DNA of 37,948 bases from Paludibacter sp. (GTDB lineage: Bacteria; Bacteroidota; Bacteroidia; Bacteroidales; Paludibacteraceae), in contig JARLGX010000038.1 in NCBI GenBank assembly GCA_031292575.1, positions 1-37,948 of the forward strand, in the 5' to 3' direction. Position numbers and translations under genes: made by a program. Under the pieces are notes generated by a model that saw only the letters and a program-made list of their open reading frames with translations, made no database searches and had not been told where the DNA came from. Shown here piece after piece: positions 4,198 to 29,209 of the stretch; position 1 is the stretch's first letter, and each line of letters begins with the position of its first letter.

Positions 4198-4292
4198 CTT
4201 AGTATAGAGTAGGGAGTAAATAGTAGGTAGTTCTGAGTCATGAGTTCAGAGTAAGTAGTAAAGAAGAGTAAAACAAACTACTTATTGTACAG
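4198..4292 (+). repeat. Heptanucleotide repeat array, copy 1 (degenerate)
   Basis: Starts directly after the wzz stop codon. Units such as GAGTAGG, GAGTAAA, GTTCTGA and GAGTTCA recur with roughly 7-base spacing up to about 4280. Same family as the arrays at 5600, 6862, 8561, 22303 and 24973. Confidence 0.7.
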
Positions 4293-4456
4293 CCAACGGT
4301 CAGCGACCAGGAGGAGATAATTAGGGATGGTTTTAAAATGTATTTTCCGCCCCAAGCCCCTAAAGGGGATGTGAAATAGTATCGTCTTTGAAAAATCAAG
4401 ATGCAACATTATATTCGTACCATTACCCATTACACAAATATGAGATTATTCCTTCG
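4293..4456 (+). repeat. 164-base interspersed repeat, copy 1
   Basis: Nearly identical to 7018-7181 over 164 bases, with about four substitutions and no indel seen. It contains a small palindrome CCCCTAAAGGGG and begins with CCAACGGTCAGCGACCAG. No coding potential is evident. The two copies are in direct orientation and enclose two toxin-like modules. Confidence 0.85.
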
Positions 4457-4556
4457 TAAAATTCGTGTTATTCGTGGTTAAAAATAAATTGATAGTAAAA
4501 GAATTAAACCACTAATTGCACCAATTTACACTAATGTGAGTTTATTCCTTCGTTTT
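4453..4556 (+). repeat. Palindromic TTCGTG-type intergenic repeat, copy 1
   Basis: Left arm carries ATTCGTGTTATTCGTGGTT and right arm CCACTAATTGCAC, which are partly complementary, joined by AAATTGATAGTAAAAG. Copies recur at 5706, 6947, 7176, 8115, 8219, 8365 and 8469. Similar palindromes are common between genes in Bacteroidota. With the two repeats before it, this accounts for most of the 500-base gap 4198-4697. Confidence 0.75.
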
Positions 4557-4671
4557 TCAATATATTGTTTTAAACAAACCAATAACCACACGTTACAAAC
4601 CGAGTGGGAGAATGGCATTAGTAACCCCTAATATGATAAAGTAAAAATAGCCTTAATCCGGTTATTTTTAG

Positions 4672-4679
4672 TATATTTG
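4672..4679 (+). promoter_or_regulatory. -7 promoter box TATATTTG for the first toxin-like module
   Basis: Exact TAnnTTTG match ending 18 bases before the ATG at 4698. No clear -33 TTTG is present at the expected distance. Confidence 0.45.
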
Positions 4680-4697
4680 GTTTTAAAAAAATAATCT

Positions 4698-5015
4698 ATG
4701 TTTTTTGATAATTATAAGAAACACTCTGATGCACAGCTGAGACCTTCGCTTCTTTGGGAGTACAAATTAGAATATTTTGATTGGAATTCCATGCGTGAAA
4801 CTGTTTTACAACGGGTGGTCGAACGGGGAAGAACAGATGATTTTTATGCGGCTCTCAATTTATACGGTTTAGAAGGATTTAAAGAAGGAATTAAAAACAT
4901 ACCGTCACTTAGTAAAAAAGACATGATATTCGTAAGTACAGTATTTGGAATAAAAAAACAAGAACTGAAATGCTATACACAGAAACAGTTGCACCAAAAA
5001 CATTGGAACTCCTAA
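4698..5015 (+). CDS. Antitoxin-like partner of AbiEii-family nucleotidyltransferase (module 1)
   Basis: A 105-residue soluble protein I do not recognise by name. It has the size and position of the small helical proteins that precede AbiEii/AbiGii-type nucleotidyltransferases in Bacteroidota. The N-terminal half contains RPSLLWEYKLEYFDW and RETVLQRVVERGRTDD; the C-terminal half has a possible helix-turn-helix-like stretch (LSKKDMIFVSTVFGIK). It overlaps the next gene by 46 bases in another frame, so the two are tightly coupled. The residue pattern (R-x-V-V-E-R-G, then F-x-x-x-L-x-x-Y-G) is loosely echoed by the small protein at 5980. The antitoxin role is inferred from position and arrangement only. 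Confidence 0.65.
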   Translation: MFFDNYKKHSDAQLRPSLLWEYKLEYFDWNSMRETVLQRVVERGRTDDFYAALNLYGLEGFKEGIKNIPSLSKKDMIFVSTVFGIKKQELKCYTQKQLHQKHWNS

Positions 5016-5596
5016 AACGGATTATGCAAGATACGGTTTTCAACCATTTCTTATTGGTGGGAGGAACTGCGCTTTCACTGCAACTGGGGCACCGTATAAG
5101 TGTTGATTTGGATTTGTTTTGTAAAGAGTCCTTCGACGAAAATAAATTAGCCGACTATCTTCGTACAGAATATAACTTTGAGTTGGATTATATTGATAAA
5201 GAAACGCTAAAAGGAGAAGTTGATGGTGTAAAACTTGATTGTATTGCACATAAATATCCATGGCTTACTGCTCCGGTTGTTGAAAATGAAATTCGTTTAG
5301 CAAGCTACAATGATATAGCTGCAATGAAATTAAATGCCATTACAGGCAACGGCACACGGCTTAAAGATTTTATTGATATTTCTTTTTTGTCAGCCTATTT
5401 GACTTTGAATGAAATGCTGAATGCTTATCAATTGAAATACAACAGTAATGCAGTGATGGTGTTGAAAGCTCTTACTTACTTCGATGAGATTAATTTTAAT
5501 GAACCAATCAATATGCTGAATAATGATTCTTTTGATTGGAAAAAAATAAAGAAACAACTTCTTCTACTCATAAAATATCCGGATAAACTGTTTTAA
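4970..5596 (+). CDS. AbiEii/AbiGii-type nucleotidyltransferase, candidate toxin (module 1)
   Basis: 208 residues with the family signature: G31-G32-T33-A34, H41-R42, S44 and D46-x-D48, then a downstream A-x-K-x-x-A ... KDFIDI block. The two aspartates are the expected metal-binding pair of the DNA polymerase beta fold. Known AbiEii toxins of AbiE systems transfer nucleotides to cellular targets and give phage defence or plasmid stability; this member is shorter (AbiEii is about 300 residues) and its target is unknown. The start ATG lies inside the partner gene. A heptamer array begins three bases after the stop. Confidence 0.8.
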   Translation: MLYTETVAPKTLELLKRIMQDTVFNHFLLVGGTALSLQLGHRISVDLDLFCKESFDENKLADYLRTEYNFELDYIDKETLKGEVDGVKLDCIAHKYPWLTAPVVENEIRLASYNDIAAMKLNAITGNGTRLKDFIDISFLSAYLTLNEMLNAYQLKYNSNAVMVLKALTYFDEINFNEPINMLNNDSFDWKKIKKQLLLLIKYPDKLF

Positions 5597-5599
5597 GTG

Positions 5600-5680
5600 A
5601 AGAGTTCTGGGTATGGAGTTCAGAGTAAAGAGCCAAGAGTAAAGAGTTCAGAGCCAAGAGTTCAGAGTAAAGAGTATAAA
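5600..5680 (+). repeat. Heptanucleotide repeat array, copy 2
   Basis: About 11 units in 7-base phase (GAGTTCT, GAGTTCA, GAGTAAA, GAGCCAA and similar), starting just after the stop codon of the nucleotidyltransferase. Purine-rich on the plus strand. Confidence 0.85.
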
Positions 5681-5833
5681 ATTATTAGCTTACGCTGACC
5701 GTTGGTTCGTGAAATCTGTGTAATTAGTAGTTCAAAATAAATTGATAGTAAAAGAATTAAACCACTAATTGCACGAACCAACGGTCAACGACCAGAGGGA
5801 GATAATTTACACGAATGTGAGATTATTTCTTCG
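5681..5833 (+). repeat. Palindromic TTCGTG-type repeat, copy 2, with CGCTGACCGTTGG head
   Basis: Begins with ATTATTAGCTTACGCTGACC, which recurs exactly at 8771-8790 and continues identically for another 20 bases. CTGACCGTTGGTTCGTG (about 5696-5712) is the reverse complement of the CACGAACCAACGGTCAG-type segment at about 5772-5790, so the element can fold on itself. With the preceding heptamers this fills most of the 383-base gap 5597-5979. The frame 5769-6050 lies across this repeat and is not taken as a gene. Confidence 0.7.
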
Positions 5834-5945
5834 TTTCATAATCTATTGTTTTAAACAATCAACAAACAACTACTTTTTGCAAACCAGTGGAAGAAGTAGA
5901 GAAGGATTTTACATTAATAGATACCTGAAAATCAATTATTTTATA

Positions 5946-5953
5946 TATTTTTG
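5946..5953 (+). promoter_or_regulatory. -7 promoter box TATTTTTG for the second toxin-like module
   Basis: Matches TAnnTTTG and ends 26 bases before the ATG at 5980. The -33 box is not clear. Confidence 0.4.
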
Positions 5954-5979
5954 TATAGAGATATTTAATCCATGGACAA

Positions 5980-6249
5980 ATGAGAACGCCCGAATTAAAA
6001 GAATTTATTCAGCAACACAGCAGCCTTTTTTGGTATACACCACAAGATAAGAAAGTGGATGTGAGCGATGAATTTTTGGTGGAAACTATTTTGAATTATG
6101 GTACACTCAATGAATATAAGGATCTGGAAAAGCTTATGGGAATAAAGGAAATATCCAGCGTTTTTATGGGTATTAAAGGACGAAAAAAATTGAATTATTT
6201 TCCTGAAGTTTATAATTTTTTTTATCTGTATTTTAAGAAACATGCATAA
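5980..6249 (+). CDS. Antitoxin-like partner of AbiEii-family nucleotidyltransferase (module 2)
   Basis: 89 residues, unrecognised by name. It is short, soluble and helical, with VETILNYGTLNEYKDLEKL followed by a G-I-K-E-I ... G-I-K-G-R-K-K stretch. It precedes and overlaps by 8 bases a second AbiEii-type nucleotidyltransferase, the same layout as module 1, so it is probably the paired regulator or antitoxin. The role is inferred from gene order. A competing minus-strand frame over the same bases (5995-6264) lacks any family features and is a shadow. Confidence 0.65.
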   Translation: MRTPELKEFIQQHSSLFWYTPQDKKVDVSDEFLVETILNYGTLNEYKDLEKLMGIKEISSVFMGIKGRKKLNYFPEVYNFFYLYFKKHA

Positions 6250-6853
6250 AGAAATACTAAACAAAGATCAGATAGAACTATTGCCATTACTTAGAGAATT
6301 CAAACGAGAATTTTATTTAGTGGGTGGAACTGCTATTGCTTTGTACATCGGACATCGGCGCTCCATTGATTTTGATTTGTTCAAGTCAAAAAGTTTTAAC
6401 GCTAAAAAAATTATTGCAAAGTTAGATATGCATCTTCTACCATACAAAGTTACCAGAAATGTATCGGAACAACTGAATCTTATTATATCTGATGTAAAAT
6501 TTACTTTCTTTGAGTACCCTTTTCCTGTTAAACCTGAAATCAAGTTTGAAGAGTATATAAAAATACCATCATTATTGGATTTGGCAGCAATGAAAGCATA
6601 TGCACTGGGAAGGCGATCGAAATGGAAAGATTATGTGGATTTATATTTCATTCTTAAAAATCATTATTCAGTGAAGCAAATTGCTCAAAGGGCTGATGAA
6701 ATATTCGGACAACTGTTTTCCGAAAAATTGTTTAGGGCGCAGCTTTGTTTTTTTAATGACATCGACTATGCTGAGGAAGTTGAATATTTAATTCAAGTTG
6801 TTTCAGATTCTGAAGTAAAGAATTTTCTAACAGAACAAGCTACTGATATTTGA
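6242..6853 (+). CDS. AbiEii/AbiGii-type nucleotidyltransferase, candidate toxin (module 2)
   Basis: 203 residues with G28-G29-T30-A31, H38-R39, S41 and D43-x-D45, then LAAMKAYALGRRSKWKDYVD, which carries the conserved K and KD-x-x-D motifs of the family. Related in motif order and length to the protein at 4970, but clearly diverged rather than a recent duplicate. Predicted activity is metal-dependent nucleotide transfer; the substrate is unknown. It overlaps its small partner, suggesting translational coupling. A heptamer array follows about 8 bases after the stop. Confidence 0.8.
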   Translation: MHKEILNKDQIELLPLLREFKREFYLVGGTAIALYIGHRRSIDFDLFKSKSFNAKKIIAKLDMHLLPYKVTRNVSEQLNLIISDVKFTFFEYPFPVKPEIKFEEYIKIPSLLDLAAMKAYALGRRSKWKDYVDLYFILKNHYSVKQIAQRADEIFGQLFSEKLFRAQLCFFNDIDYAEEVEYLIQVVSDSEVKNFLTEQATDI

Positions 6854-6861
6854 TACTAGAG

Positions 6862-6943
6862 GGTAGTTCTGAGTAAAGAGTAAAGAGTAAAGAGTTCTGA
6901 GTAAAGAGCAAAGAATAAAGAGTAAAGAGTTTTGAGTATAAAA
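6862..6943 (+). repeat. Heptanucleotide repeat array, copy 3
   Basis: Units GAGTAAA, GAGTTCT, GAGCAAA, GAATAAA and GAGTTTT in 7-base phase, directly after the stop at 6853. The minus-strand frame at 6856-7155 that crosses this array is repeat-derived. Confidence 0.85.
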
Positions 6944-6946
6944 TCT

Positions 6947-7036
6947 TTCGTGAAATTCGTGTTATTCGTAGTTAAAAATAAATTGATAGTAAAAGAATTA
7001 AACCACTTATTGCACAACCAACGGTCAGCGACCAGG
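6947..7036 (+). repeat. Palindromic TTCGTG-type repeat, copy 3
   Basis: TTCGTGAAATTCGTGTTATT through TTGATAGTAAAAG to CCACTTATTGCAC and the CCAACGGTCAGCGACCAG tail, which runs straight into the second 164-base repeat. Confidence 0.75.
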
Positions 7037-7181
7037 AGGAGATAATTAGGGGTAGTTTTAAAATGTATTTTCCGCCCCAAGCCCCTAAAGGGGATGTGAA
7101 ATAGTATCGTCTTTGAACAATCAAGATGCAACATTATATTCGTACCATTACCCATTACACAAATATGAGATTATTTCTTCG
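7018..7181 (+). repeat. 164-base interspersed repeat, copy 2
   Basis: Near-perfect direct copy of 4293-4456. Together the copies flank the two AbiE-like modules, so homologous recombination between them would delete about 2.7 kb. Confidence 0.85.
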
Positions 7182-7261
7182 TGAAAATTTGTGTTATTTG
7201 TGGTTAAAAATAATTTCATAATAAAAAATCTAAACTACTAATTACACTAATTGCACGAATA
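7176..7261 (+). repeat. Palindromic TTCGTG-type repeat, copy 4 (variant arm)
   Basis: A second subtype, with AATTTCATAATAAAAAATCT in the middle and an extra CTAATTACACTAATTGCAC. The same subtype recurs at 8115 and 8365. Together with the heptamers, palindrome copy 3 and the 164-base repeat it fills the gap 6854-7315. Confidence 0.7.
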
Positions 7262-7315
7262 TGCAAACGCTTGGGAGAAGAGATAATAAAGAATAAAAAT
7301 CAAATCAGCAGAAAT

Positions 7316-7639
7316 ATGAATACAAACAATCATGATATCCTAACCGATTTCAGCCAACTGCTAAGATTGCACTTTTCAGATAATCTGAAAGATTTAGTTT
7401 TGTTTGGCTCTCGAACTACTGGCAAGGCTAAAAAGGATTCTGACTATGATTTTTTAGTGATTTTAAAACAGAAAGCTGATTGGAAAATTGAAAGACAAAT
7501 TTCGGACTTAAGCTTCGAAATAGAATTGAAATATAATATAGTTGCTGATACTCACGTTCTGGGTGAATCAGAATTGTCAACTTTAAGAGGGAAACAACCA
7601 ATTTATGTAAATGCCATAGAGAGGGGGATACACGCATGA
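7316..7639 (+). CDS. MNT-family minimal nucleotidyltransferase, antitoxin partner of HEPN protein (module 3)
   Basis: 107 residues from the ATG at 7316; a TTG start at 7271 would add 15 residues that look like leader. The minimal nucleotidyltransferase signature G31-S32-R33, G36, S42-D43-x-D45 is complete, followed by the usual DFLVILK strand and the acidic EIELKYNI strand. In the MNT/HEPN pairs studied, the MNT protein neutralises the HEPN toxin, in some cases by AMPylation. Its TGA overlaps the HEPN start codon (ATGA), typical of an obligate pair. Confidence 0.82.
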   Translation: MNTNNHDILTDFSQLLRLHFSDNLKDLVLFGSRTTGKAKKDSDYDFLVILKQKADWKIERQISDLSFEIELKYNIVADTHVLGESELSTLRGKQPIYVNAIERGIHA

Positions 7640-8028
7640 TTGACGAAAAAGACAGAGATGCCTTGGTTACATATCGATTACAGCAGGCTTTTGAAACAAT
7701 TGAATTAGCAAGATTTCTTGTAAAAAATAAAAAGTTAGTGATTGCTGTGAATCGTATTTATTATGGTATGTATTATTCACTTACTGCTTTAGCATTGGCA
7801 ACAGGTTTTGAAACTTCAAAGCATGGTCAACTAATCGGCTGGTTTAATAAGGAATTTATCGCAACCAAAAAAATTGATACAAAATTTGGAAAAATACTGC
7901 GCAACGCATTTCAAAACAGAACCAAAGGCGATTACGATGCATTTATCAGTTTCACTCAGCAAGAAGTTGAAATCATGTTAGGTGAGATGATTGAATTTAT
8001 TGAAGAGATAAAGAAAACACTGTATTAG
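7636..8028 (+). CDS. HEPN-domain protein, candidate toxin (module 3)
   Basis: 130 residues, all helical, with NRIYYGMYYSLTALALATG (the R-x-Y-Y-x-x-x-Y helix of HEPN/UPF0332 proteins) and NRTKGDYDAF (the R-x-x-x-D-Y end motif). I do not see the R-x4-6-H ribonuclease motif that defines HepT-type toxins: there is no histidine after the arginine in NRTKGDYD. It may therefore be a non-nuclease HEPN subtype, and toxicity is uncertain. Start ATG at 7636 overlaps the MNT stop. Confidence 0.78.
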   Translation: MIDEKDRDALVTYRLQQAFETIELARFLVKNKKLVIAVNRIYYGMYYSLTALALATGFETSKHGQLIGWFNKEFIATKKIDTKFGKILRNAFQNRTKGDYDAFISFTQQEVEIMLGEMIEFIEEIKKTLY

Positions 8029-8114
8029 TATTTAATTGTAATATGTTTGTAAGTACTGAAACTTAGTTCTAACCCGACTAAGCAAAAGACAAACCAATAA
8101 ACAGGGAGAAGAAA

Positions 8115-8614
8115 TTCGTGAAAATTCGTGTCATTTGTGCTTAAAAATAATTTCATAATAAAAAATCTAAACTACTAATTACACTAATTGCACGAATTTG
8201 AACAGATATGAGATTATTCCTTCGTGAAATTCGTGTTATTCGTGGTTAAAAATAAATTGATAGTAAAAGAATTAAACCACTAATTGCACGAACCAACGGT
8301 CAACGACCAGAGAGTTTGTTCTGAGTTCTGAGTTTTGAGTAAGGAGTTCTGAGTATAAAAATTCTTCGTGAAAATTCGTGTCATTTGTGCTTAAAAATAA
8401 TTTCATAATAAAAAATCTAAACTACTAATTACACTAATTGCACGAATTAGAACAGATATGAGATTATTCCTTCGTGAAATTCGTGTTATTCGTAGTTAAA
8501 AATAAATTGATAGTAAAAGAATTAAACCACTTATTGCACGAACCAACGGTCAACGACCAGAGAGTTTGTTCTGAGTTTTGAGTAAGGAGTTCTGAGTAAA
8601 GAGCAAAGAGTAAT
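8115..8614 (+). repeat. 250-base tandem duplication of palindromic repeats
   Basis: The block starting at 8115 repeats at 8365, offset exactly 250. Each contains a variant TTCGTG palindrome, then a standard one, the CCAACGGTCAACGACCAG tail and a short run of heptamers. The copies agree almost base for base up to the heptamers, where the first copy (8321-8360) has one extra GAGTTCT unit, and then diverge. No gene is contained. Confidence 0.85.
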
Positions 8615-8770
8615 AAGTTCTGAGTAAAGAGTTCTGAGTTCAGAGTTCAGAGTAAGGAGTAAAGAGTAAAGAGCAAAGAGCGAAGAGTTAAGAGCGAAGA
8701 GTTAAGAGTAAAGAGTAAAGAGCAAAGAGTAAAGAGCAAAGAGTAAGGAGTAAGGAGTTCAGAGCATAGA
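8561..8770 (+). repeat. Heptanucleotide repeat array, copy 5 (longest)
   Basis: About 28 consecutive units in strict 7-base phase: GAGTAAA, GAGCAAA, GAGTTCT, GAGTTCA, GAGTAAG, GAGCGAA, GAGTTAA. Almost every unit starts with GAG. The plus strand is nearly devoid of C, so the strand is strongly purine-biased. Followed by ATTATTAGCTTACGCTGACC as at 5681. Confidence 0.9.
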
Positions 8771-8812
8771 ATTATTAGCTTACGCTGACCGTTGGTTCGT
8801 GAAATCTGTGTG

Positions 8813-9106
8813 CATATGAAAAAATCATTTTACGGATATGAAAAGACATTTTTGCATATGAAAAAATCTTTTTACGGATACGTAAATCGAAATTACGGAT
8901 ATGAAAACTCGCATTACGGTAACGTAAATTGAAATTACGGATATGAAAACTCGCATTACGGTAACGTAAATCGATATTATTCTAAAGGCTTAAGTGAATG
9001 TTCTAAAGACTTGGGTAACGATTCTAAAGGCTTAAGTAGACATTCTGAAGGACACAGTAAGAGTTTTGAAGGACAAGGTTTTGGTTTTGTAGACTTGGGA
9101 AAGAAT
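8813..9106 (+). repeat. 21-base tandem repeat array, 14 units, upstream of rfbF
   Basis: Fourteen contiguous units of exactly 21 bases. Units 1-8 (8813-8980) are based on GGATATGAAAA and GGTAACGTAAAT with ATTAC ends; 33 bases of units 5-6 recur exactly in units 7-8. Units 9-14 (8981-9106) switch to a TCTAAAGGCTTAAGT-type consensus. There are no spacers, so this is not CRISPR. In one frame it reads as heptapeptides (HMKKSFY, GYENSHY, SKGLSRH) from ATG 8816, broken by TGA at 8930-8932, so a functional protein is unlikely unless it restarts. It ends 52 bases before the rfbF start. Together with the blocks above it fills the 1.1-kb gap 8029-9158; only 8029-8114 shows nothing. Confidence 0.9.
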
Positions 9107-9158
9107 AGATATAATTTTCAATACGCAGAAAACATAAATTTTGAAATAATAATTAATT

Positions 9159-9932
9159 ATGAAAGTATTAATTTTGGCTGGTGGACTTGGCTCACGACTT
9201 TCTGAAGAAACAACTTTAAAACCAAAACCAATGGTTGAGATAGGAGGTAAACCTATTTTATGGCACATAATGAAAATCTATTCATCCTATGGATTTAATG
9301 ATTTTGTTATATTGTGCGGGTACAAAGGATATATGATAAAAGAGTATTTTGCAAATTATTATAGTCATATGTCAGATTTGACAATTGATATGAAAAATAA
9401 TACTATTACACATCATGTTAATCATGCAGAACCATGGAAAGTGACTCTTATTAATACAGGTTTAGATACTATGACAGGTAGTCGTATAAAAAAAGTAAAA
9501 GAATACATTAACAATGAACCATTTATGTTGACTTATGGAGATGGAGTCTCTGATGTTAATTTAAACGAACTCTTATCGTTTCACAAAGAGCATGGAAAGG
9601 CAATTACAATGACCTCTGTTCAACCTGAAGGACGTTATGGCTCACTCATTATCGATGGTCAAAACAAGGTGTTATCATTTCAAGAAAAACCAAAAGGAGA
9701 CGGCGCATGGATAAATGCAGGTTTCTTTGTTTGTCAACCTGAAGTACTTGATTATATCCCCGAAGGTGACAAAATTATATTTGAAAAGGAGCCTCTGGAA
9801 AGATTAGCTATCGAAAATCAATTATATACTTTCAAACATGAGGGTTTTTGGAAACCAATGGACACTCAACGTGATAAAAATCAACTAGAATACTTAATTG
9901 AAAATAAAAAAGCACCTTGGATCAAATGGTAA
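9159..9932 (+). CDS. rfbF: Glucose-1-phosphate cytidylyltransferase
   Basis: Makes CDP-glucose from CTP and glucose-1-phosphate, the first step of CDP-linked deoxyhexose synthesis. The 257 residues are the usual family length. The nucleotide-binding loop GGLGSR is at 8-13, followed by KPKPMVEIGGKPILWHIM; the metal-binding GDGVSDV and the sugar-site EGRYGSL, QEKPKGDGAWINAGFFV and EGFWKPMDTQRDK blocks are all present. Its stop overlaps the start of rfbG (TAATG). It is the first gene of the A+T-rich cassette and sits just after the 21-base array. A loose -7-like TAAATTTTG lies at 9134-9142. Also known as ddhA or ascA in Yersinia. Confidence 0.95.
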   Translation: MKVLILAGGLGSRLSEETTLKPKPMVEIGGKPILWHIMKIYSSYGFNDFVILCGYKGYMIKEYFANYYSHMSDLTIDMKNNTITHHVNHAEPWKVTLINTGLDTMTGSRIKKVKEYINNEPFMLTYGDGVSDVNLNELLSFHKEHGKAITMTSVQPEGRYGSLIIDGQNKVLSFQEKPKGDGAWINAGFFVCQPEVLDYIPEGDKIIFEKEPLERLAIENQLYTFKHEGFWKPMDTQRDKNQLEYLIENKKAPWIKW

Positions 9933-11014: not shown

Positions 11015-11077
11015 ATATTAGTGATTAATCGTTAAATGCTAGTATGCTCTTCAATTTATCTTACGAAATAATTACAT

Positions 11078-11950: not shown

Positions 11951-11956
11951 TATATT

Positions 11957-12361
11957 ATGAGTTTAGCTTCGAAAATAAAGATTATTGAAAGGACTAGAAT
12001 AGAAGATTCTAGAGGCTGGTTTCTAAAAGTAATTACCGGTAAAGAAGAAAATATACCAAACTATACAGGAGAAATATATCTTACTAATGCTGTTCCAAAT
12101 GAAGCAAAAGGTGGACATTACCATAAAGCGGCAAATGAATGGTTTACATTAATTACAGGAGAATGTGAACTGAAACTTGTTGATTTAATTACATGTGAGA
12201 AATTGAGTATTCAACTTTCAGCTAGCACGCCAAAGACTATTTATGTGCCTACAAATATAGCTCATATTTTCATGAATAACGGTACTGAAGATTTCATTCT
12301 ACTTGCATACACTGATAAATTATATAATCCAACTGATACAATATTATTTTCTGAATTTTAA
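11957..12361 (+). CDS. RmlC-like cupin, putative nucleotide-sugar 3- or 3,5-epimerase
   Basis: 134 residues forming one cupin fold. RIEDSRGWFLKVITG resembles the dTDP-4-dehydrorhamnose 3,5-epimerase entry motif, G52-G53-H54-Y55-H56 matches the catalytic histidine strand, and ITGECELKLVDL and the later IYVPTNIAHIFMN strand complete the fold. It is shorter than RmlC (about 185). Placed between the reductase and a glycosyltransferase in a CDP-sugar operon, it most likely epimerises CDP-4-keto-6-deoxyglucose before reduction. A 3,4-ketoisomerase of FdtA type is the main alternative, but no aminotransferase is nearby. Confidence 0.65.
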   Translation: MSLASKIKIIERTRIEDSRGWFLKVITGKEENIPNYTGEIYLTNAVPNEAKGGHYHKAANEWFTLITGECELKLVDLITCEKLSIQLSASTPKTIYVPTNIAHIFMNNGTEDFILLAYTDKLYNPTDTILFSEF

Positions 12362-12378
12362 TTTAAACGGAGTTGAAA

Positions 12379-21383: not shown

Positions 21384-22205
21384 ATGATTACTGCTTCACT
21401 AGTTACTTATCATAATTCAGTATCAGATATAGAGCGAGTTCTTAATTCAGCTTTAAATAGTTGTATAGATAAGATCTATATTATCGATAACTCAAAAACA
21501 GATTTATTTAGGAGCTTTGAACAACTGTCTTCTAAAATAGAATATATCCGTAACAATAATAATGGGTATGGTGCTGGAAATAATTTAGCAATAAAGCGCG
21601 CAATTGAATTAGATAATGCAACTTATCACATTGTTTTAAATCCCGATATTTATTTTGAAAAGGGTGTTATAGAAGAGTTAGTGAGCTATATGGATTTAAA
21701 TTCTGAAGTTGGTTTAGTAATGCCAAAGGTTTTTTATCCTAATGGTGAATTGCAATATCTCTGTAAATTAATTCCTACTCCTGTAGATATTTTATTTCGT
21801 TGGTTACTTTCACCTGCAAAATTTAAAGAAAGAGACATTCGTTTTAAATTACTATTTACTGGTTATAACAAATCAATGAATGTACCTTATCTTTCTGGAT
21901 GTTTTATGTTTTTTAGAGTAAATGCTTTGAAAGAAGTCGGATGCTTTGATGAACGTTTTTTTATGCACTTTGAAGATTTGGATATATCTAGACGGGTACA
22001 TAATAAGTATAGAACAATGTATTATCCATCCGTTAGCATTGTACATGCTCATGCAGCTAGTCATAGGAAAAATATTAAGATGTTAGGGATTGGAATAAGT
22101 AGTGCAATAAAATATTTTAATAAATGGGGTTGGGTGTTTGATAAAGAGAGGACTTTAGTAAACAAAGAACTTCTAAAAGAATTGGAGTATAAGAAAACCA
22201 AATAA
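21384..22205 (+). CDS. Family 2 glycosyltransferase (WbbL/rhamnosyltransferase-like)
   Basis: 273 residues. GT-A features: ASLVTYHNS at the N-terminus, IIDNS, NGYGAGNNLAIKRAIE (nucleotide-binding N-x-G-x-G-x-G-x-N), LNPDIYF (the D-x-D equivalent), VPYLSGCFMFFR and FDERFFMHFEDLDISRR with the catalytic E-D-x-D. This motif set is typical of dTDP-rhamnosyltransferases and related capsule enzymes. Last gene of the A+T-rich cassette; a T-run but no clear hairpin follows its stop. Confidence 0.9.
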   Translation: MITASLVTYHNSVSDIERVLNSALNSCIDKIYIIDNSKTDLFRSFEQLSSKIEYIRNNNNGYGAGNNLAIKRAIELDNATYHIVLNPDIYFEKGVIEELVSYMDLNSEVGLVMPKVFYPNGELQYLCKLIPTPVDILFRWLLSPAKFKERDIRFKLLFTGYNKSMNVPYLSGCFMFFRVNALKEVGCFDERFFMHFEDLDISRRVHNKYRTMYYPSVSIVHAHAASHRKNIKMLGIGISSAIKYFNKWGWVFDKERTLVNKELLKELEYKKTK

Positions 22206-22217
22206 TATTTTTTTTAG

Positions 22218-22313
22218 GTCGTCGTCATCAATACTTCAAATGCTTTGGGAATAGCCAACATGCCTGTCAGGGCAGAGGATGGGTTCAGGAAAACAGTGAA
22301 TAGTTTGGAGTAG
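22218..22313 (+). pseudogene. Possible gene remnant (about 31 codons)
   Basis: Between a TAG at 22215-22217 and a TAG at 22311-22313 one frame reads VVVINTSNALGIANMP then VRAEDGFRKTVNSLE, with composition like real protein and higher G+C than the cassette. There is no start codon at its head. I do not recognise the parent protein. It may be the tail of a gene lost when the cassette was exchanged, or chance. Confidence 0.25.
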
Positions 22314-22460
22314 GAAGTAAGGAGTAAGAAGTGAGGAGTAAGGAGTAAAGATTAAGGAGTAAGGAGTAAGAAGTGAGGAGTAAGGAGTAAGGAGTAAAGA
22401 GTAGGAAGTAAGAAGTAAAGAGTAAGGAGTAAGGAGTAAGAAGTAAGGAGTAAAGAGTAG
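22303..22460 (+). repeat. Heptanucleotide repeat array, copy 6 (right edge of cassette)
   Basis: About 20 units of GTAAGGA, GTAAGAA, GTGAGGA, GTAAAGA and GTAGGAA in 7-base phase. Same family as the arrays at 4198-8770. With the remnant before it and the promoter after it, this accounts for the 390-base gap 22206-22595; 22461-22560 shows nothing. Confidence 0.88.
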
Positions 22461-22566
22461 TGTTTTTGTTATTTCTGGTGGTACTTTTCTTGATTTGTTT
22501 AGAATTTATGGGTATGTATTTATTTAAAAATAGGTATTTTACGGTGGTTTATTTCTGGAAAATCAT

Positions 22567-22574
22567 TATCTTTG
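22567..22574 (+). promoter_or_regulatory. -7 promoter box TATCTTTG for the DUF4143 ATPase
   Basis: Exact TAnnTTTG match 21 bases before ATG 22596. The expected -33 TTTG is not clear (GTGGTTT nearby). It suggests independent transcription of this gene. Confidence 0.55.
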
Positions 22575-22595
22575 CTTTAAATAACTAGAATTAGT

Positions 22596-23951
22596 ATGCC
22601 CCGTAATACCTTGTATTTTTTTAGAACTATCGACTTTCATTTAAAAACATGGAAAGAGGATGTACATCATAAGCCTTTGTTGTTACGGGGTGCCCGACAA
22701 GTTGGAAAATCATCTGCAGTGCGGCATTTAGGTGAAACATTTGAGTATTTTCTGGAAGTGAATTTTGAGCGTAATCCCGATATAAAACAACTGTTTAGTG
22801 CCACACTCAATCCTAAAGAAATTTGTAGTAAATTATCGGCTATCTATAATTTACCTATTCAACCGGGAAGAACGCTCGTGTTTTTCGATGAAATTCAGGC
22901 TTGTTTACCCGCTATTGCTTCGCTACGTTTTTTTTACGAGGAATATCCCGAATTGCATGTTGTTGCAGCAGGTTCGTTGTTAGAATTTGCTTTACAAGAA
23001 ATACCATCCTTTGGCGTTGGTCGCATACGCTCCTTGTATATGTATCCTTTTTCGTTCAATGAGTTTTTGCAAGCGTTAGGGTTGGACCGGTTAATAGCCG
23101 AAAAACGCAATGCTACGCCCGGACAGCCTTTATTTGAGGTACTTCATAAAAAGTTGACTGAATGTTTACGCACTTTTTTGTTAGTTGGAGGCATGCCCGA
23201 GAGTGTGAAAACCTGGGTTGAAAAATCGGATTATTTGGCTTGTCGCTATGTGCAGAATGATATTATAGAAACGTATATCGATGATTTTGCAAAGTATAAA
23301 AAGCGAATATCACCCATGATTTTACAGCAAACGCTTCGTTCAGTAGCTTTGCAATCGGGGTGTAAATTCGTTTATTCACAGGTATTGCCTGATATGGAAT
23401 CGATCAAAATAAAGGAAGCGTTAGAATTGCTTTCGATGGCTGGTATTATAATGCCGGTTACACATACTTCAGCTAATGGAGTACCGTTAGGTGCAGACGT
23501 AAATACGAAGTTTCGCAAATATCTTTTTATGGATACAGGCTTACTGCAAAGGTTACTAAATCTTGAAATGGATAATGTTCTTCTTTCAACGGATATTAAT
23601 TTGGTGAATAAAGGAATCTTGACCGAAGTTTTTGCAGGTTTAGAGATTTTGAAATATGGAAGTTGTTATGAACGTCAGGAACTATATTATTGGCTACGGC
23701 TTGACAAAGGAGCTCAAGCCGAAGTAGACTATGTACTCTCGAAAAGTGATACTATCATCCCAATTGAAGTGAAAGCAGGAACAAAAGGTTCCATGCAAAG
23801 TCTTTATAGCTTTATAGCGTTGAAAAAATCAAGAGTGGGTGTTCGCACTTCATTGGAAAATTTCGGAAAGATTGGTAATATTGAGATTTATCCTTTATAT
23901 GCTATTGAAAACTTTTCAGTTAGCAGTCAACAGTTATCAGTGAACAGTTAA
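22596..23951 (+). CDS. AAA+ ATPase with C-terminal DUF4143
   Basis: 451 residues. Walker A GARQVGKS at 32-39, Walker B LVFFDEIQ near 94-101, sensor-like AAGSLLEFAL, and PFSFNEFLQALG, typical of the archaeal/bacterial ATPase_2 + DUF4143 family. The second half carries the DUF4143 nuclease-like core (VDYVLSKSDTIIPIEVKAG, an E-V-K motif as in PD-(D/E)XK folds). Function is poorly defined; these genes are widespread, mobile and repeated in Bacteroidota. Own promoter and higher G+C than the cassette suggest independent arrival. The last 14 residues (NFSVSSQQLSVNS region) are encoded by a 7-base-phase CAGTTA/CAGTCAA-type repeat, so the tail looks repeat-derived. Confidence 0.88.
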   Translation: MPRNTLYFFRTIDFHLKTWKEDVHHKPLLLRGARQVGKSSAVRHLGETFEYFLEVNFERNPDIKQLFSATLNPKEICSKLSAIYNLPIQPGRTLVFFDEIQACLPAIASLRFFYEEYPELHVVAAGSLLEFALQEIPSFGVGRIRSLYMYPFSFNEFLQALGLDRLIAEKRNATPGQPLFEVLHKKLTECLRTFLLVGGMPESVKTWVEKSDYLACRYVQNDIIETYIDDFAKYKKRISPMILQQTLRSVALQSGCKFVYSQVLPDMESIKIKEALELLSMAGIIMPVTHTSANGVPLGADVNTKFRKYLFMDTGLLQRLLNLEMDNVLLSTDINLVNKGILTEVFAGLEILKYGSCYERQELYYWLRLDKGAQAEVDYVLSKSDTIIPIEVKAGTKGSMQSLYSFIALKKSRVGVRTSLENFGKIGNIEIYPLYAIENFSVSSQQLSVNS

Positions 23952-24011
23952 TTCTTAACTCAGAACTCCTAACTCTTAACTCAAAACTACCGACTCTTAA
24001 CTCAGAACTAA
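23916..24011 (-). repeat. Heptanucleotide repeat, copy 7 (complementary orientation)
   Basis: First part (23916-23951) is CAGTTAG CAGTCAA CAGTTAT CAGTGAA in 7-base phase inside the DUF4143 gene's end. Second part (23952-24011) is AACTCAG AACTCCT AACTCTT AACTCAA, the reverse complement of the GAGTT/GAGTAAG family. It runs to three bases before the next start codon. Confidence 0.8.
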
Positions 24012-24014
24012 TAA

Positions 24015-24962
24015 ATGATCTTACCATTACTTTTTATAGCGTTGTTTGCAGCTGAACTGGCTTATTTTAAACTGGCCGATCGTTACAACATTATTGACAA
24101 ACCCAACGAGCGGAGCTCTCATACACGGATAACATTACGCGGTGGGGGCATTGTTTTTTATATAGGCATAGTCCTTTATTTTTTAGTCCGGGGTTTCCAG
24201 TACCCCTGGTTCTTTGTTGGATTAACTCTGATTTCGGCTATCAGTTTTGCTGATGATATTCGTCCCCAGTCGTCGAAGCTCAGGTTAACTGTCCATTTTA
24301 TTGCCATGTTGCTTATGTTTTATCAATGGGGCTTGTTTTCAGAACATTGGATTTACAGTGTAATCGCGTTGATTTTCTGTACAGGGCTTTTGAATGCATA
24401 TAATTTTATGGACGGTATCAATGGAATTACAGGCGTTTACAGCTTGGTGGTGGTGGGAGCATTGTGGTATATCAATTCGGTTCAGATTCATTTTGTTGAT
24501 ACTGATTTGATTGATATAGTATTGTTGTCATTGCTTGTGTTCGATTTTTTTAATTTCAGAACAAAAGCAAAATGTTTTGCAGGCGACGTGGGTGCCATTT
24601 CAATCGCCTTTATCATTCTTTTCATGCTTGGATTGTTGGTAAATAAAACAGGCGATTTTAGCTACATCATTCTGCTGGTTGTGTATGGCGTTGATTCAAT
24701 ACTAACCATTGTTCACCGGCTTATTCTGAAAGAAAATATTTTCAAACCACACCGAAAACACGCGTATCAGATCATGGCCAACGAGTTGAAGCTACCTCAT
24801 ATACTGGTAACAAGCTTCTATGCATTGCTGCAGGCAGTTATCGCGATTGGTTATTTTTGGTTTAAATCTTATTCCTATTGGTATTTAATAATTACAATAA
24901 TGCTGTTATCTTTGTGCTATTTGATATTTAAACTGAAATACTTCCGATTGACAAAACAATGA
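24015..24962 (+). CDS. WecA/MraY-family undecaprenyl-phosphate sugar-1-phosphate transferase
   Basis: Starts the repeat unit by moving a sugar-1-phosphate (probably HexNAc or a 6-deoxy-HexNAc) from a UDP-sugar to undecaprenyl phosphate. 315 residues with about 10 membrane helices. Family motifs: DKPNERSSH near 28-36, D80-D81, NAYNFMDG 127-134, GDVG 190-193 and HRKHAYQ 246-252. The aspartates and the histidine motif are the Mg2+ and substrate sites of the family. The FlaA1-type dehydratase at 29731 could make its substrate. Start is ATG 24015, immediately after a heptamer array. Confidence 0.92.
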   Translation: MILPLLFIALFAAELAYFKLADRYNIIDKPNERSSHTRITLRGGGIVFYIGIVLYFLVRGFQYPWFFVGLTLISAISFADDIRPQSSKLRLTVHFIAMLLMFYQWGLFSEHWIYSVIALIFCTGLLNAYNFMDGINGITGVYSLVVVGALWYINSVQIHFVDTDLIDIVLLSLLVFDFFNFRTKAKCFAGDVGAISIAFIILFMLGLLVNKTGDFSYIILLVVYGVDSILTIVHRLILKENIFKPHRKHAYQIMANELKLPHILVTSFYALLQAVIAIGYFWFKSYSYWYLIITIMLLSLCYLIFKLKYFRLTKQ

Positions 24963-24972
24963 ACAGTTATGG

Positions 24973-25080
24973 ATAAGAAGTAAGGAGTAAGAAGTAAGGA
25001 GTAAGAAGTAAGGAAGTAAGGAAGTAAGGAGTAAGAAGTAAGGAGTAAGGAGTAAGGAGTAAGGAGTAAGGAGTAAGAAG
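24973..25080 (+). repeat. Heptanucleotide repeat array, copy 8 (plus orientation)
   Basis: GTAAGGA and GTAAGAA units in 7-base phase, with two 8-base GGAAGTAA slips near 25010-25025. It lies about 10 bases after the WecA-like stop and faces the oppositely oriented array that follows. Confidence 0.88.
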
Positions 25081-25085
25081 TGATG

Positions 25086-25241
25086 ACTACTAACTCTCAA
25101 CTCACAACTCACGATTCTCAACTCACGACTCACACTACCAATTCATAACTCACGATTCTCAACTCAAAACTCTTAACTCCTAACTCAAAACTACCGACTC
25201 CCAACTCAGAACTCTTAACTATCAACTCCAAACTCTCCACT
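25086..25241 (-). repeat. Heptanucleotide repeat array, copy 9 (minus orientation)
   Basis: ACTCTCA ACTCACA ACTCACG ACTCAAA ACTCTTA ACTCCTA units: the reverse complement of the GAG-headed family. It runs to five bases before the start codon of the kelch gene. With copy 8 it forms an imperfect inverted pair filling the 284-base gap. Confidence 0.88.
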
Positions 25242-25246
25242 CATTT

Positions 25247-26230
25247 ATGAATTTCCTAAAACCAATTCTATATTTCGTAATCATTTTCTTGTTTCTCGGT
25301 TGCAATGACGCAGTAGATTCGCCTTATCCGTCTGTTTCGTTTCAGCAAATTGCCGTTTTGCCCGGAACAGGAAGAGCTTCGGCAGTGGCATTTGCATTGA
25401 ATGGAAAAGGATATGTTACCTTGGGTAGGGATAGTAATCCGGCAGACTCTTTGAAAGATTGTTGGCAATATGATCCAACCGCCGATAGTTGGACGATTGT
25501 AACTGCGTTCCCGGGCAGGGCACGTGTAAAAGCCATAGCCGCCGTAGTAAATGGCAAAGCTTATGTGGGTCTTGGATATAAACCTCATGTTTCAACCTAT
25601 GTCAATGGGAATTACAAAGATGTATGGATGTATGACCCTACACAGAATGGCTGGACTCGAAAAGCTGATTTCCCGAGTAAAGCCACCGATGCTTGTGTTA
25701 GTTTTGTGCGTGATAATTGTATTTATGTAGGTTCAGGATTTAACGATATTGGGTACACCAATGAATTTTGGAAATACGATACAGAAAAAGATACCTGGAC
25801 CCGATTAAATAATTTGCCGGGAGATAGAGCCGGAGCTACTATTTGTGCAGATAGTGCACATATCTATTACGGAACAGGATATAATGAAGGGAATTATAAC
25901 GATTGGTGGGAGTATTTTCCAGCAACCGTCAGTTGGAAGCAACGTACATCAATGCCCGATAATGGCAGGGTTAATGCAGTTTCGTTGAATATTAATCATC
26001 GTTTTTTTGTTTCGAGTGGAAGGCATTGGGGAGGTAACTTAACCGGTGGACATTTAATTTCGGATATAGTGGAATATGATGCGGCGCGTGATGTTTGGTA
26101 CAAAAGAGGAAATATTCCGGATGGAGGCCGTGAAAATGCAATTTCATTTGTTATCAACGGAAAAGGATATATTGGTCAGGGAGAAAATGATACACAGATA
26201 TTTAATGATTTTTGGAGCTTTGTACCGTGA
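25247..26230 (+). CDS. Kelch-repeat beta-propeller lipoprotein
   Basis: 327 residues. Lipoprotein signal peptide with lipobox LFLGC, lipidated Cys at 19. Five to six kelch blades follow, each ending Y-D-P/T-x4-W-T: CWQYDPTADSWT, VWMYDPTQNGWTR, FWKYDTEKDTWTR, WWEYFPATVSWKQR and IVEYDAARDVWYKR, with FWSFVP closing the ring. Surface or periplasmic beta-propeller of unknown ligand; similarity to galactose-oxidase-type propellers is structural only, with no obvious copper ligands. Lying between the priming transferase and Wzi, it may help surface polysaccharide assembly, but this is speculation. Confidence 0.85.
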   Translation: MNFLKPILYFVIIFLFLGCNDAVDSPYPSVSFQQIAVLPGTGRASAVAFALNGKGYVTLGRDSNPADSLKDCWQYDPTADSWTIVTAFPGRARVKAIAAVVNGKAYVGLGYKPHVSTYVNGNYKDVWMYDPTQNGWTRKADFPSKATDACVSFVRDNCIYVGSGFNDIGYTNEFWKYDTEKDTWTRLNNLPGDRAGATICADSAHIYYGTGYNEGNYNDWWEYFPATVSWKQRTSMPDNGRVNAVSLNINHRFFVSSGRHWGGNLTGGHLISDIVEYDAARDVWYKRGNIPDGGRENAISFVINGKGYIGQGENDTQIFNDFWSFVP

Positions 26231-26315
26231 AATTAAGGAGCAGGATCAATAAAACGTCGTATAAATATTGGGATTTAAAAATTCTTTCTTAATTTGATAG
26301 TTAATCTCGAAAAAA

Positions 26316-26383
26316 CTTTGTGTTTTTGTGACTTGGTGGCTATTTCTTTTGCCACAAAGACTTTAAGGTTCTAAGAAACAAAG
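26316..26383 (+). repeat. CTTTGTG-type palindromic repeat
   Basis: CTTTGTGTTTTTGTGACTTG and GCCACAAAGACTTTAAGG ... AAACAAAG are partly complementary arms around TATTTCTTTT. This is a third palindromic repeat type, of a kind common between Bacteroidota genes. It occupies the gap between the kelch gene and wzi. Confidence 0.6.
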
Positions 26384-26449
26384 AAAGATAAAGAGTTATA
26401 CAACATTATTTTGTTCCACTTACTTAGTCCGTAATTGAATTGAAAAAAA

Positions 26450-27886: not shown

Positions 27887-27903
27887 ATTGTAAATTTTTT
27901 CAG

Positions 27904-27911
27904 TATATTTG
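27904..27911 (+). promoter_or_regulatory. -7 promoter box TATATTTG
   Basis: Exact TAnnTTTG match 18 bases after the wzi stop. It would start a transcript whose first ORF is the 36-codon frame at 27932 and then the nucleotidyltransferase-kinase. The -33 box is weak. Confidence 0.5.
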
Positions 27912-27931
27912 CATAATTAAAATTTTATGAA

Positions 27932-28042
27932 ATGAGCATAAAAAAGAGTTTTAGTTTCTCTGACCGTTTGTTCACGAACGAGAGCGAAAATTTAATATGC
28001 GAGTTCTATATGATCTTAAAAATATCAATTATTTTTACATGA
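27932..28042 (+). CDS. Possible 36-residue upstream ORF coupled to the nucleotidyltransferase-kinase
   Basis: ATG 27932 opens a frame (MSIKKSFSFSDRLFTNESEN, then about 16 more residues ending in IIFT) whose TGA overlaps the next gene's ATG at 28039 as ATGA. It begins about 14 bases after the predicted transcription start. A bulged hairpin (CTCT/AGAG plus CGTT/AACG around 27958-27984) lies within it. It may be a leader peptide or chance; no family is recognised. Confidence 0.3.
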   Translation: MSIKKSFSFSDRLFTNESENLICEFYMILKISIIFT

Positions 28043-29169
28043 AAAAAGTATTTGTAAGTGGTTGTTATGACATGTTGCACAGCGGACATGTTGCATTTTT
28101 TGAAGAGGCTGCTCAATATGGTGATTTATATGTTGGAATAGGTTCTGACAAAACCATTAATAACCTTAAAGCGCGTAAGACAATAAATTCGGATGCTGAA
28201 AGATTGTACATGGTTAAGGCACTGAAAGTTGTAAAAGATGCATGGATAAACAAGGGAGATGGATTATTAGATTTTTTGGAAGAACTAAACATTCTTCAAC
28301 CGGATATATTTTTTGTAAATGCCGATGGCCATACGCCGGACAAAGAAGCACTTTGTAAGGAAATGGGTATTGAGTATGTAGTAAGTAAACGTGTGCCGCA
28401 TGGAAATTTACCAGCACGTTCAACAACTGCTTTACGTCAGGAATGTAAAATTCCGTACCGAATAGATTTAGCTGGTGGCTGGCTCGACCAACCTTATGTA
28501 AGTAGTTATGCTTCAGGATCAGTTATTACCATTTGCATTGAGCCCGATTATGAATTTAATGATCGCAGTGGTATGTCGACCAGCAGCCGGAAAAAAGCCA
28601 TTGAACTTTGGCAAACAGATATTCCGGAAGGTGATAAAGAAAAGCTTGCCAAAACTCTTTTTTGTTTTGAAAACCCACCAGGGAGTGAATACATTAGTGG
28701 TTCACAGGATTCACTTGGAATTACGCTTCCCGGACTGAATAAATTTTATTATGAGGGCAATTATTGGCCAAATGAGATTGAAAGTACTACCGATTCTTTA
28801 ATATTAGATTGGATTGAGGAAAGAATTTGGATGATTCCACTTTATCCTCGTTATGAAAACTATGATGTATTGGCAAATAGTAGAATTGATAAAGCAGGTG
28901 CGAAACGCTTAAGTTTAGCAACAGAAAAATGTTGGAATTCATTATTGAAAATGGATGCAAAATCTGTAGGCAAATATATAACCGAGAGTTTTGAAGCACA
29001 AATTGCTATGTTCCCTAATATGTTGACACATGGTGTGTTGGAACAAATTAAACAATATGAAAATCAGGTGCTTGGATGGAAGCTTAGCGGAGCCGGTGGT
29101 GGTGGTTATTTGATATTTTTTAGTGAGCAAGCTGTTGAAAATGCAATTCAAATAAGGATTAGACGGTAG
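28039..29169 (+). CDS. Bifunctional nucleotidyltransferase / GHMP-type sugar kinase
   Basis: 376 residues from ATG 28039; an upstream in-frame ATG (27997) would add 14 unlikely residues. The N-terminal 1-130 is a cytidylyltransferase-like (TagD/HldE-C type) domain with SGCYDMLHSGH (HxGH at 14-17) and the ribose-contacting ARSTT near 126-130. The C-terminal part is a GHMP kinase like HddA: motif 1 RIDLAGGWLD 141-150, motif 2 SGMSTSS 177-183, the Q223-D224 pair seen in heptose kinases, and motif 3 KLSGAGGGG 348-356. It probably phosphorylates a sugar and then activates it as a CDP- or ADP-sugar; the sugar is unknown. Heptamer-like DNA starts right after the stop. The order is unlike HldE, which has a PfkB kinase first. 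Confidence 0.8.
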   Translation: MKKVFVSGCYDMLHSGHVAFFEEAAQYGDLYVGIGSDKTINNLKARKTINSDAERLYMVKALKVVKDAWINKGDGLLDFLEELNILQPDIFFVNADGHTPDKEALCKEMGIEYVVSKRVPHGNLPARSTTALRQECKIPYRIDLAGGWLDQPYVSSYASGSVITICIEPDYEFNDRSGMSTSSRKKAIELWQTDIPEGDKEKLAKTLFCFENPPGSEYISGSQDSLGITLPGLNKFYYEGNYWPNEIESTTDSLILDWIEERIWMIPLYPRYENYDVLANSRIDKAGAKRLSLATEKCWNSLLKMDAKSVGKYITESFEAQIAMFPNMLTHGVLEQIKQYENQVLGWKLSGAGGGGYLIFFSEQAVENAIQIRIRR

Positions 29170-29170
29170 A

Positions 29171-29209
29171 AGAAAGTATTGGAGTAAGAAAGTAATGAGT
29201 AGTAAGAAA
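29171..29209 (+). repeat. Short heptanucleotide repeat at the cupin start
   Basis: GAGTAAG, AAAGTAA and TGAGTAG units resembling the repeat family lie between the kinase stop and the cupin gene. The GGAG at 29181 could act as a ribosome binding site for ATG 29195. Confidence 0.5.

Follow-up and report, generated by a model that had tools for sequence, protein, structure and literature searches.

Purine-first heptamer arrays converge in pairs in a Paludibacter capsule-type locus and in several phyla, and may be scars of DNA-end synthesis

We analysed a stretch (C23:1-37948, the window) of a 3.46 Mb Paludibacter sp. genome in 40 contigs, in which arrays of degenerate seven-base units, chiefly GAGTNNN, lie between the genes of a capsule or O-antigen type locus. 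Here and in other bacteria, the purine-rich (AGT/GAG) strand of each paired array nearly always runs 5' to 3' from the flank to the junction. Our preferred reading, to which we give a probability of about 0.4, is that the window arrays are examples of a widespread type of seven-base satellite, here named converging heptamer arrays, and are neutral scars of heptamer synthesis at 3' ends. The one-way facing of the arrays, together with copies in enzyme loops, hints at a common way of writing heptamers into DNA. The original prediction, made from the letters of the window, had described the arrays; it overlooked that arrays converge in pairs, that some are coding and that the GAGT unit is almost confined to one locus.

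Both regions of the window that mix the two orientations run AGT-type first and ACT-type second, that is, the pairs converge. In one, a plus-strand CAGTNNN array (23917..23951) codes the C-terminus of an AAA_14/DUF4143 open reading frame (ORF; 22596-23951) and is joined to an NNNACTC array (23952..24010; GAGTTNN on the minus strand), which spans from the stop of that ORF to 4 nt upstream of a GT4 glycosyltransferase ORF (24015-24962). The other pairs a plus-strand GAGTAAG array (24974..25091), 11 nt past the GT4 stop, with a second NNNACTC array (25083..25243; again GAGTTNN on the minus strand) that lies before a Kelch ORF (25247-26230). Between the arms of these window pairs, either the GAGT core is common and the triplets are not or the core itself differs. 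Across 80 loci of several phyla, those listed among at least 116 stretches found in a scan of genomes for GAGT arrays, 16 of 18 mixed regions were AGT-first, none was reversed and two were in between. Bacteroidota loci, including the window, gave ten converging versus two diverging mixed regions (L166 and L194). Scoring purine content alone, for any unit, we found 60 purine-first, 6 purine-last and 12 tied regions among 78 with several arrays, compared with a purine order of 81 versus 71 in array-free spacers taken as control (n = 290).

Whole-genome counts, with overlapping start points counted in both orders alike, point the same way. Within the phylum of the window, GAGT followed by ACTC occurs in 27 of 257 genomes (own genome included) and ACTC followed by GAGT in 4. 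In 48 genomes of other phyla (Cyanobacteria, Chloroflexota, Acidobacteriota and others), the two orders gave 1727 versus 26 matches, in 39 versus 12 genomes, with 324 of the 1727 supplied by one genome (G738). Converging outnumbers diverging in 38 of the 48, is outnumbered in one (G705) and is equal in nine. These genomes were preselected for GAGT arrays, not for array order, and represent 49 of the 80 listed loci; left aside were 16 Bacteroidota loci, five second loci of included genomes, and L038, L041, L051, L057, L091, L097, L083, L090, L098 and L100. Counts of TGAG before CTCA, made as reversed-pattern controls and amounting to a second core, gave 110 versus 13 for the reverse in the own phylum and 590 versus 10 in the other phyla. 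In 20 stretches each of two Acidobacteriota genomes, G738 and G732, converging to diverging pairs stood at 26:0 and 25:1; these stretches were partly picked around listed converging sites, and the ratios are thus not independent of the whole-genome counts.

Polarity persisted in every gene context, with purine-first to purine-last ratios of 19:2 and 17:1 in plus- and minus-strand tandem spacers, 9:0 in convergent and 5:0 in divergent spacers, 7:2 inside ORFs and 3:1 at contig edges. We therefore rejected a rule tied to the transcribed or translated strand, as polarity was the same whether the genes beside a spacer diverged or converged, and within ORFs as well. A converging pair reads alike on both strands, and thus a polarity rule need not depend on transcription. 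Generic hairpin polarity was also rejected as the cause: perfect hairpins away from arrays had a purine-first to purine-last ratio of 31:96 in the all-phyla loci and of 94:58 (p = 0.004), a mild purine-first bias, in Bacteroidota, and the array polarity is far stronger than this array-free bias.

Across relatives, the period of the arrays is conserved and their sequence is not. The exact four-unit GAGT pattern was present in 18 of 60 genomes searched (own genome included), among them 13 of 36 genus members, and its triplets vary between genomes. Sixteen genus-member loci anchored on the GT4 orthologue alone held 37 period-7 arrays, while no other period from 4 to 13 reached more than six; at least one period-7 array was present in 11 of them, with units as different as TAGTNNN, TCTTGNN, CAGTNNN and more. 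Twenty control stretches from the same genus yielded 25 period-7 arrays versus at most four of other periods (5-12), and the stretches of the two Acidobacteriota genomes 99 and 145 versus at most 25 of other periods (5-10). Additionally, units show a modest excess of contiguous 4+3 conservation that is clear in large sets only (p = 0.08 in the window, 0.06 in GT4 loci, 0.06 in control stretches, 0.017 in the GAGT-selected set and 1.8e-6 in all phyla).

Arrays of this kind are also translated. In many relatives a nucleotide-sugar epimerase gene, not found in the window's own genome, lies upstream of GT4, directly so in some, and its arrays occupy one fixed coding site. This site lies between the helix after the catalytic motif YxxxK and the strand leading to RPCMIHG; its place in the fold comes from alignment to solved short-chain dehydrogenase/reductase enzymes. 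Among the best 120 of 7999 homologues, 119 could be anchored, with loops of 18-146 amino acids (aa) and an N-terminal flank of 139 residues in 107. Residue identity within the loop is 0.27 at lag 7, 0.19 at lag 14 and 0.05-0.10 at other lags, and a seven-residue repeat equals three 7-nt units. Heptads, of many unrelated types, were found in 59 of the 119 loops (1.6% after shuffling) and residues coded by a CCCCTAAAGGGG-type palindrome in 15; the purine type preceded the ACT type in all 51 loops that hold both. Orthologues with no detected array have loops of 14 (L172), 20 (L174), 22 (L175) and 32 (L169) residues. Beside this subject, we note that the start of the epimerase gene occurs twice in relative G430, once in the full gene (L165:2543-3478) and once, truncated, some 1 kb further upstream (1486-1689).

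The loop changes faster than its surroundings. The flanks of epimerases P0005 and P0011 are 100% identical, and their loops, coded by degenerate arrays, differ by exactly 7 aa, a difference seen through a protein search that can show in-frame proteins only. P0003 and P0013 share 99% identical flanks and the same loop start, with loops of 41 versus 84 residues, and P0047 and P0065, with 96.6% identical flanks, carry unrelated repeats. Length differences were divisible by 7 in 188 of 602 pairs at flank identity of at least 90% and in 6 of 22 at 95% or above, where one in seven is expected; thus, whole in-frame blocks are favoured but are not the sole change. In their coding copies, these satellites build and rebuild a loop of surface-polysaccharide-locus enzymes faster than the flanks change.

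A second loop of this type follows DGSTD in a GT2 family, where the best 120 of 4239 matches divide into 50 with heptads (0.4% after shuffling), 21 coded by the palindrome and 49 others. Some of these homologues (P0121-P0240; query L227:4695-5657) fill the loop with heptads and others with PPKGG...PPLGGWG, which resembles the translation of a CCCCTAAAGGGG-type palindrome, as if two unrelated intergenic repeats shared one landing site. In the window's own genome, a GAGT array on contig C35 lies in frame within an E2 acyltransferase ORF (L196:7927-9264), in the linker between the lipoyl and E3-binding domains, which ends in the translated array (TQNSELKTQNSS); several E2 homologues carry other peptides at the same place that resemble translated arrays. 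Strict heptads occur in only 9 of 109 anchored E2 homologues (of the best 120 of 7942 matches, 11 could not be anchored) and linker length is nearly constant, which makes the E2 linker a weaker case. A heptamer array also lies between the two domains of a DAHP synthase-HAD fusion in relative G014 (L200:5217-6596).

We infer that extension of 3' ends with purine-rich heptamers from both sides, followed by joining, is the simplest process that would yield purine-first pairs whatever the context. At a break, nick or stalled fork, DNA synthesis would extend a 3' end with such heptamers, through slippage or terminal re-copying and with one array per end, and the array-bearing ends would then be joined or filled in. 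The product would be retained only where harmless, and such tolerance could explain why arrays are located behind stops, before starts, and in protein loops and linkers between domains; a host function would not be needed. The capsule locus would be where the GAGT type happened to accumulate in this genome, aided by local spacer duplication. Slippage by itself accounts for length change but not for polarity. GAGT before ACTC and ACTC before GAGT are both inverted repeats, and thus hairpin formation accounts for pairing but does not alone yield polarity, because the reverse order would pair too. In a bolder form of the idea, which we regard as unlikely, many bacteria of several phyla own an activity that adds purine-rich heptamers to 3' DNA ends, in the manner of telomerase at the chromosome ends of eukaryotes. 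Each healed break would then become a converging pair, with a unit that depends on the local end and on the lineage, and the capsule arrays and heptad loops would be its scars.

Several observations weigh against reading the arrays as scars of end synthesis. No enzyme, intermediate or fresh insertion was observed. In G738 and G732, triplets of the two arms match better than those of re-paired arms (outer 13/26 versus 7.6 and 11/25 versus 7.1; inner 14 versus 7.8 and 14 versus 9.3), which suggests pairing or copying, unlike what two independent ends would predict. Many G732 pairs (for example L286 and L291; G732 is the genome of L096) also share an inner core resembling TCGGGGATTTAATTTCC, more like a small repeated or mobile element with heptamer ends. 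The mild purine-first bias of array-free hairpins in Bacteroidota means that a small part of the polarity there may be general. In 338 kb sampled from the own genome outside the window, period 7 (five tracts) was not special, as period 8 also had five and periods 6 and 12 had four each. Orientation of the GAGT strand relative to stops and starts is a trend only (19:8 versus 4:6, p = 0.13). Among the coding loops, 51 of 119 in the epimerase and 49 of 120 in GT2 hold neither heptads nor palindrome, and epimerase insert length is divisible by 7 in just 43 of 119 (17 expected). Finally, the motif lists behind the 51 of 51 epimerase loops in purine-first order were hand-chosen, and these loops are one homologous site and so do not represent 51 independent events.

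Among other explanations, we consider it unlikely that slippage expands the arrays and that pairs are then kept, in transcript or DNA, for a ladder hairpin of 4-5 base pair (bp) GAGT/ACTC steps with the triplets as internal loops. The RNA fold of 24960-25246 is such a ladder (-66.5 kcal/mol, z = -1.98), with an inner part of 4-5 bp steps and 2x2 or 3x3 internal loops, and the agreement between arms in the two Acidobacteriota genomes exceeds chance. There is also an analogue in the heptamer stem, with whole-region replacement, of the P6b element in a Nostoc tRNA-Leu intron (PMC4476775; here and below, statements on published work refer to the parts of each paper considered). Yet six of 200 shuffles of 24960-25246 folded equally well and 23905-24014 reached only z = -1.16, so that the window folds only weakly better than shuffles. 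Six window arrays have no nearby partner (two mixed regions were found), reverse-order pairs, which would fold as well, have about 66 times fewer matches, and polarity persists in divergent spacers and within ORFs. It is quite unlikely, in our view, that the pairs are elements resembling repetitive extragenic palindromic (REP) sequences or miniature inverted-repeat transposable elements, with heptamer arrays as ends and a transposase acting in trans that reads a purine-first foot. REP elements of the RAYT type combine a palindrome, an unpaired GTAG or CGTC tag and a RAYT gene. The TCGGGGATTTAATTTCC-like core of G732 pairs, the position of window arrays among duplicated composite spacers and the fixed motif at one end of REP hairpins (PMC3733652) are consistent with such an element, whereas the listed G738 cores vary from site to site, the two window pairs have no common core, and array length and unit vary freely.

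The original prediction had suggested that the arrays might act at mRNA 3' ends, serve as recombination tracts or be selfish; the last, widened to selfish or neutral, fits best, whereas the first is not needed and the second gained no support. A regulatory 3' untranslated region or translation element on capsule mRNAs is a decidedly improbable explanation. The excess of arrays just past stops would agree with it, as would the TAACTGA heptamers of one Beggiatoaceae genome, which lie mostly just before starts (PMC4679880). However, the orientation rule is alike in tandem, convergent and divergent spacers and within ORFs, and thus a role at mRNA 3' ends is not needed; units also differ among relatives, down to the minority of genus members that share the four exact GAGT units. 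Recombination tracts that shuffle capsule-locus cassettes are very improbable. Window arrays do flank toxin-antitoxin-like cassettes and both sides of the GT4 and AAA_14 genes, whose neighbours vary in relatives, but an impression of breakpoints from gene order around GT4 failed a formal junction count. Among shared junctions 5 of 58 contained an array, among testable unshared ones, a small class, 2 of 19, and among orphan junctions 15 of 194 (Fisher p = 0.79, shared versus all unshared), and breakpoints were thus no richer in arrays than conserved junctions. Increased stability around published heptamers (Rehm et al. 2015, PMC4692102) also speaks against this role.

Arrays are present at all nine places where they had been described. 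Tandem Repeats Finder (TRF) lists eight of the nine (including 24974-25081) and misses the degenerate array at 4198. A GAGT-phase detector returned plus-strand tracts at 4200-4262, 5595-5678, 6864-6940, 8323-8357, 8573-8775, 22294-22461 and 25022-25091 and minus-strand tracts at 23948-24010, 25083-25131 and 25131-25242, with no GAGT-core tract in 100 first-order Markov shuffles of the window. A period-general detector, run over periods 4-13, found ten tracts in the window, all of period 7; eight of the nine arrays (again not 4198) account for nine of them, and the tenth (13807-13850) is AT-rich and unrelated. Our first period-7 detector made 2 chance matches in 20 shuffled windows. These searches support the description of a unit that drifts while keeping its 7-base phase, as in cyanobacterial heptamers; at the end of the region described as holding arrays (29166-29209), the TRF match has period 16 and is not a period-7 tract.

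A genome-wide scan for the 7-base unit, as had been proposed, found it multicopy in the window and not scattered over the genome. Three exact GAGTNNN units gave 34 matches in the whole 3.46 Mb; the window, 1.1% of the genome, accounts for 31 of them and the single array on C35 for the other three. None of the five period-7 tracts in the 338-kb sample was of the GAGT type, and tract density per 100 kb was 1.5 there versus 26.4 in the window.

Placement relative to genes, based on gene calls from a simple longest-ORF script, was partly as first described. The statement that most arrays start 0-12 nt past a stop applies to five of the nine (2, -2, 10, 11 and 0 nt); of the other four, the tracts at 8318, 8568 and 22294 lie 289, 539 and 88 nt downstream of the nearest stop, and the 25083-25243 array lies 120 nt downstream of a stop, yet 3 nt upstream of the Kelch start. 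The excess just past stop codons is nevertheless real across tandem spacers, where 57 of 123 arrays begin within 15 nt of a stop, compared with 24.2 expected under uniform placement; before starts there is no clear excess (30 of 123 versus 24.2, p = 0.12). These 123 arrays comprise 77 from loci picked for GAGT arrays, 9 from the window and 37 others, of which 20 lie within 15 nt past a stop versus 11.7 expected. Loci L178-L214 were selected for GAGT arrays; L196, the own genome, was excluded from the stop and start placement count and included in the mixed-region and purine-order counts. GAGT arrays near stops were on the sense strand in 19 of 27 cases, and near starts in 4 of 10.

The remaining arrays, all on the plus strand, can be placed in the locus as called by a Pfam domain search of ORFs. 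An SLBB/Poly_export ORF (683-3097) and an ORF without Pfam match (3097-4197) precede a degenerate GAGTNNN array (4200..4262, 2 nt past the stop). Three toxin-antitoxin-like cassettes (DUF6922 with AbiEii, a small ORF without match with AbiEii, and a nucleotidyltransferase with HEPN) come with GAGTNNN arrays at the stop of the AbiEii-type ORF 4970-5596 (5595..5678, at -2 nt; found by TRF and the GAGT detector), 10 nt past the stop of the second AbiEii-type ORF, 6242-6853 (6864..6940), and in a 1130-bp spacer behind the HEPN ORF (a short array, 8318..8357, and the longest, 8568..8775, with about 29 units). Sugar-nucleotide and glycosyltransferase genes extend up to 22205, followed by the AAA_14/DUF4143 gene, GT4, Kelch, Wzi and others; a (G/A)AGTAAR array (22294..22461) lies 88 nt past the stop of a GT2 ORF (21384-22205).

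The first five arrays sit among composite spacers between the cassettes. These gaps have DNA in common (4275..8597; nonamer TTCGTGNNN, CCCCTAAAGGGG palindrome, CCAACGGTCARCGACCAG), and over 4275-8800 the spacers are mosaics of the palindrome, CCAACGGTCARCGACCAG and a nonamer repeat that occurs both as TTCGTGNNA and as the complement of that sequence. The nonamer has 22 matches in the own genome, 8 in the window's contig and 9 on C27 and C19, and a search of one composite spacer against 393 genomes of the order found 36 other genomes that match, over short fragments only. Within 8115-8597, two tandem copies of a 233-bp stretch follow each other at a 250-bp step with 96% identity, and the heptamer arrays at the first and second copies are of very unequal length (about 5 versus 29 units). 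A second kind of tandem array, with 21/42-bp units (ATATGAAAAAATCATTTTACGG type), occupies 8814-9051, after the longest heptamer array and before the nucleotidyltransferase gene (9159-9932).

Bacterial heptamer repeats have been noticed repeatedly. A polarity rule that holds in 27 versus 4 of 257 genomes of this phylum, at about 66:1 in the matches of 48 from other phyla, across all gene contexts covered and for units that are unrelated, strongly constrains their origin and makes that question open to laboratory testing. The short tandemly repeated repetitive (STRR) heptamers of cyanobacteria are degenerate tandem 7-bp units that keep phase and occur in many copies over the genome; window arrays are likewise degenerate, tandem and phased, but the GAGT type is not dispersed. 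In a phase-variable contingency locus, a perfect repeat switches a reading frame through its copy number, whereas the coding arrays described here are degenerate. The coding repeat of neuO in E. coli K1 is also a heptanucleotide in a capsule-related gene, whereas window arrays are mostly non-coding and degenerate. The neuO product is a phase-variable capsule O-acetyltransferase (PMC13001214).

Published heptamers resemble the window arrays in other respects. The G-rich heptamers GGGAATC of Xanthomonas and GGGGA(T/C)T of Nostoc PCC 7120, for which G-quadruplexes were proposed, are mostly intergenic, with a sizeable intragenic share in Nostoc, and, at distances of up to 50 bp, lie in sense past stops and in antisense ahead of ORFs (Rehm et al. 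2015, PMC4692102). Convergent plus/minus pairs numbered 70 and 75 in two Xanthomonas genomes and were few in Nostoc (PMC4692102). They share with the window the period of 7, placement at gene ends and, in both window pairs, convergence, but the window unit is GAGTNNN with 0-1 GGG tract per array, and we thus rejected a G-quadruplex reading. The TAACTGA direct repeats of Beggiatoaceae, Cyanobacteria and Bacteroidetes, including Paludibacter propionicigenes, are patchily distributed heptamers beside gene ends, partly inside ORFs, with longer mixed heptamer arrays also described (MacGregor 2015, PMC4679880). Their unit is fixed and the Beggiatoaceae copies lie mostly before starts; the sections of that paper considered contain neither a polarity rule nor a hypervariable loop, and neither window strand has a two-copy TAACTGA repeat (four single copies occur). 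The P6b stem of the Nostoc tRNA-Leu intron is built of NNTGAGT or TDNGATT heptamers, whole classes of which are replaced (Kaasalainen et al. 2015, PMC4476775). The window arrays have their GAGT core in common with Class II (NNTGAGT). Whole-array replacement at one site is shared as well, the site being an RNA stem there and a protein loop here. In the open-access literature we found no paper on hypervariable coding loops or on a pair rule across units and phyla. What our data add to earlier heptamer work is a pair polarity that holds for many units and in several phyla, and hypervariable loops coded by the same kind of repeat.

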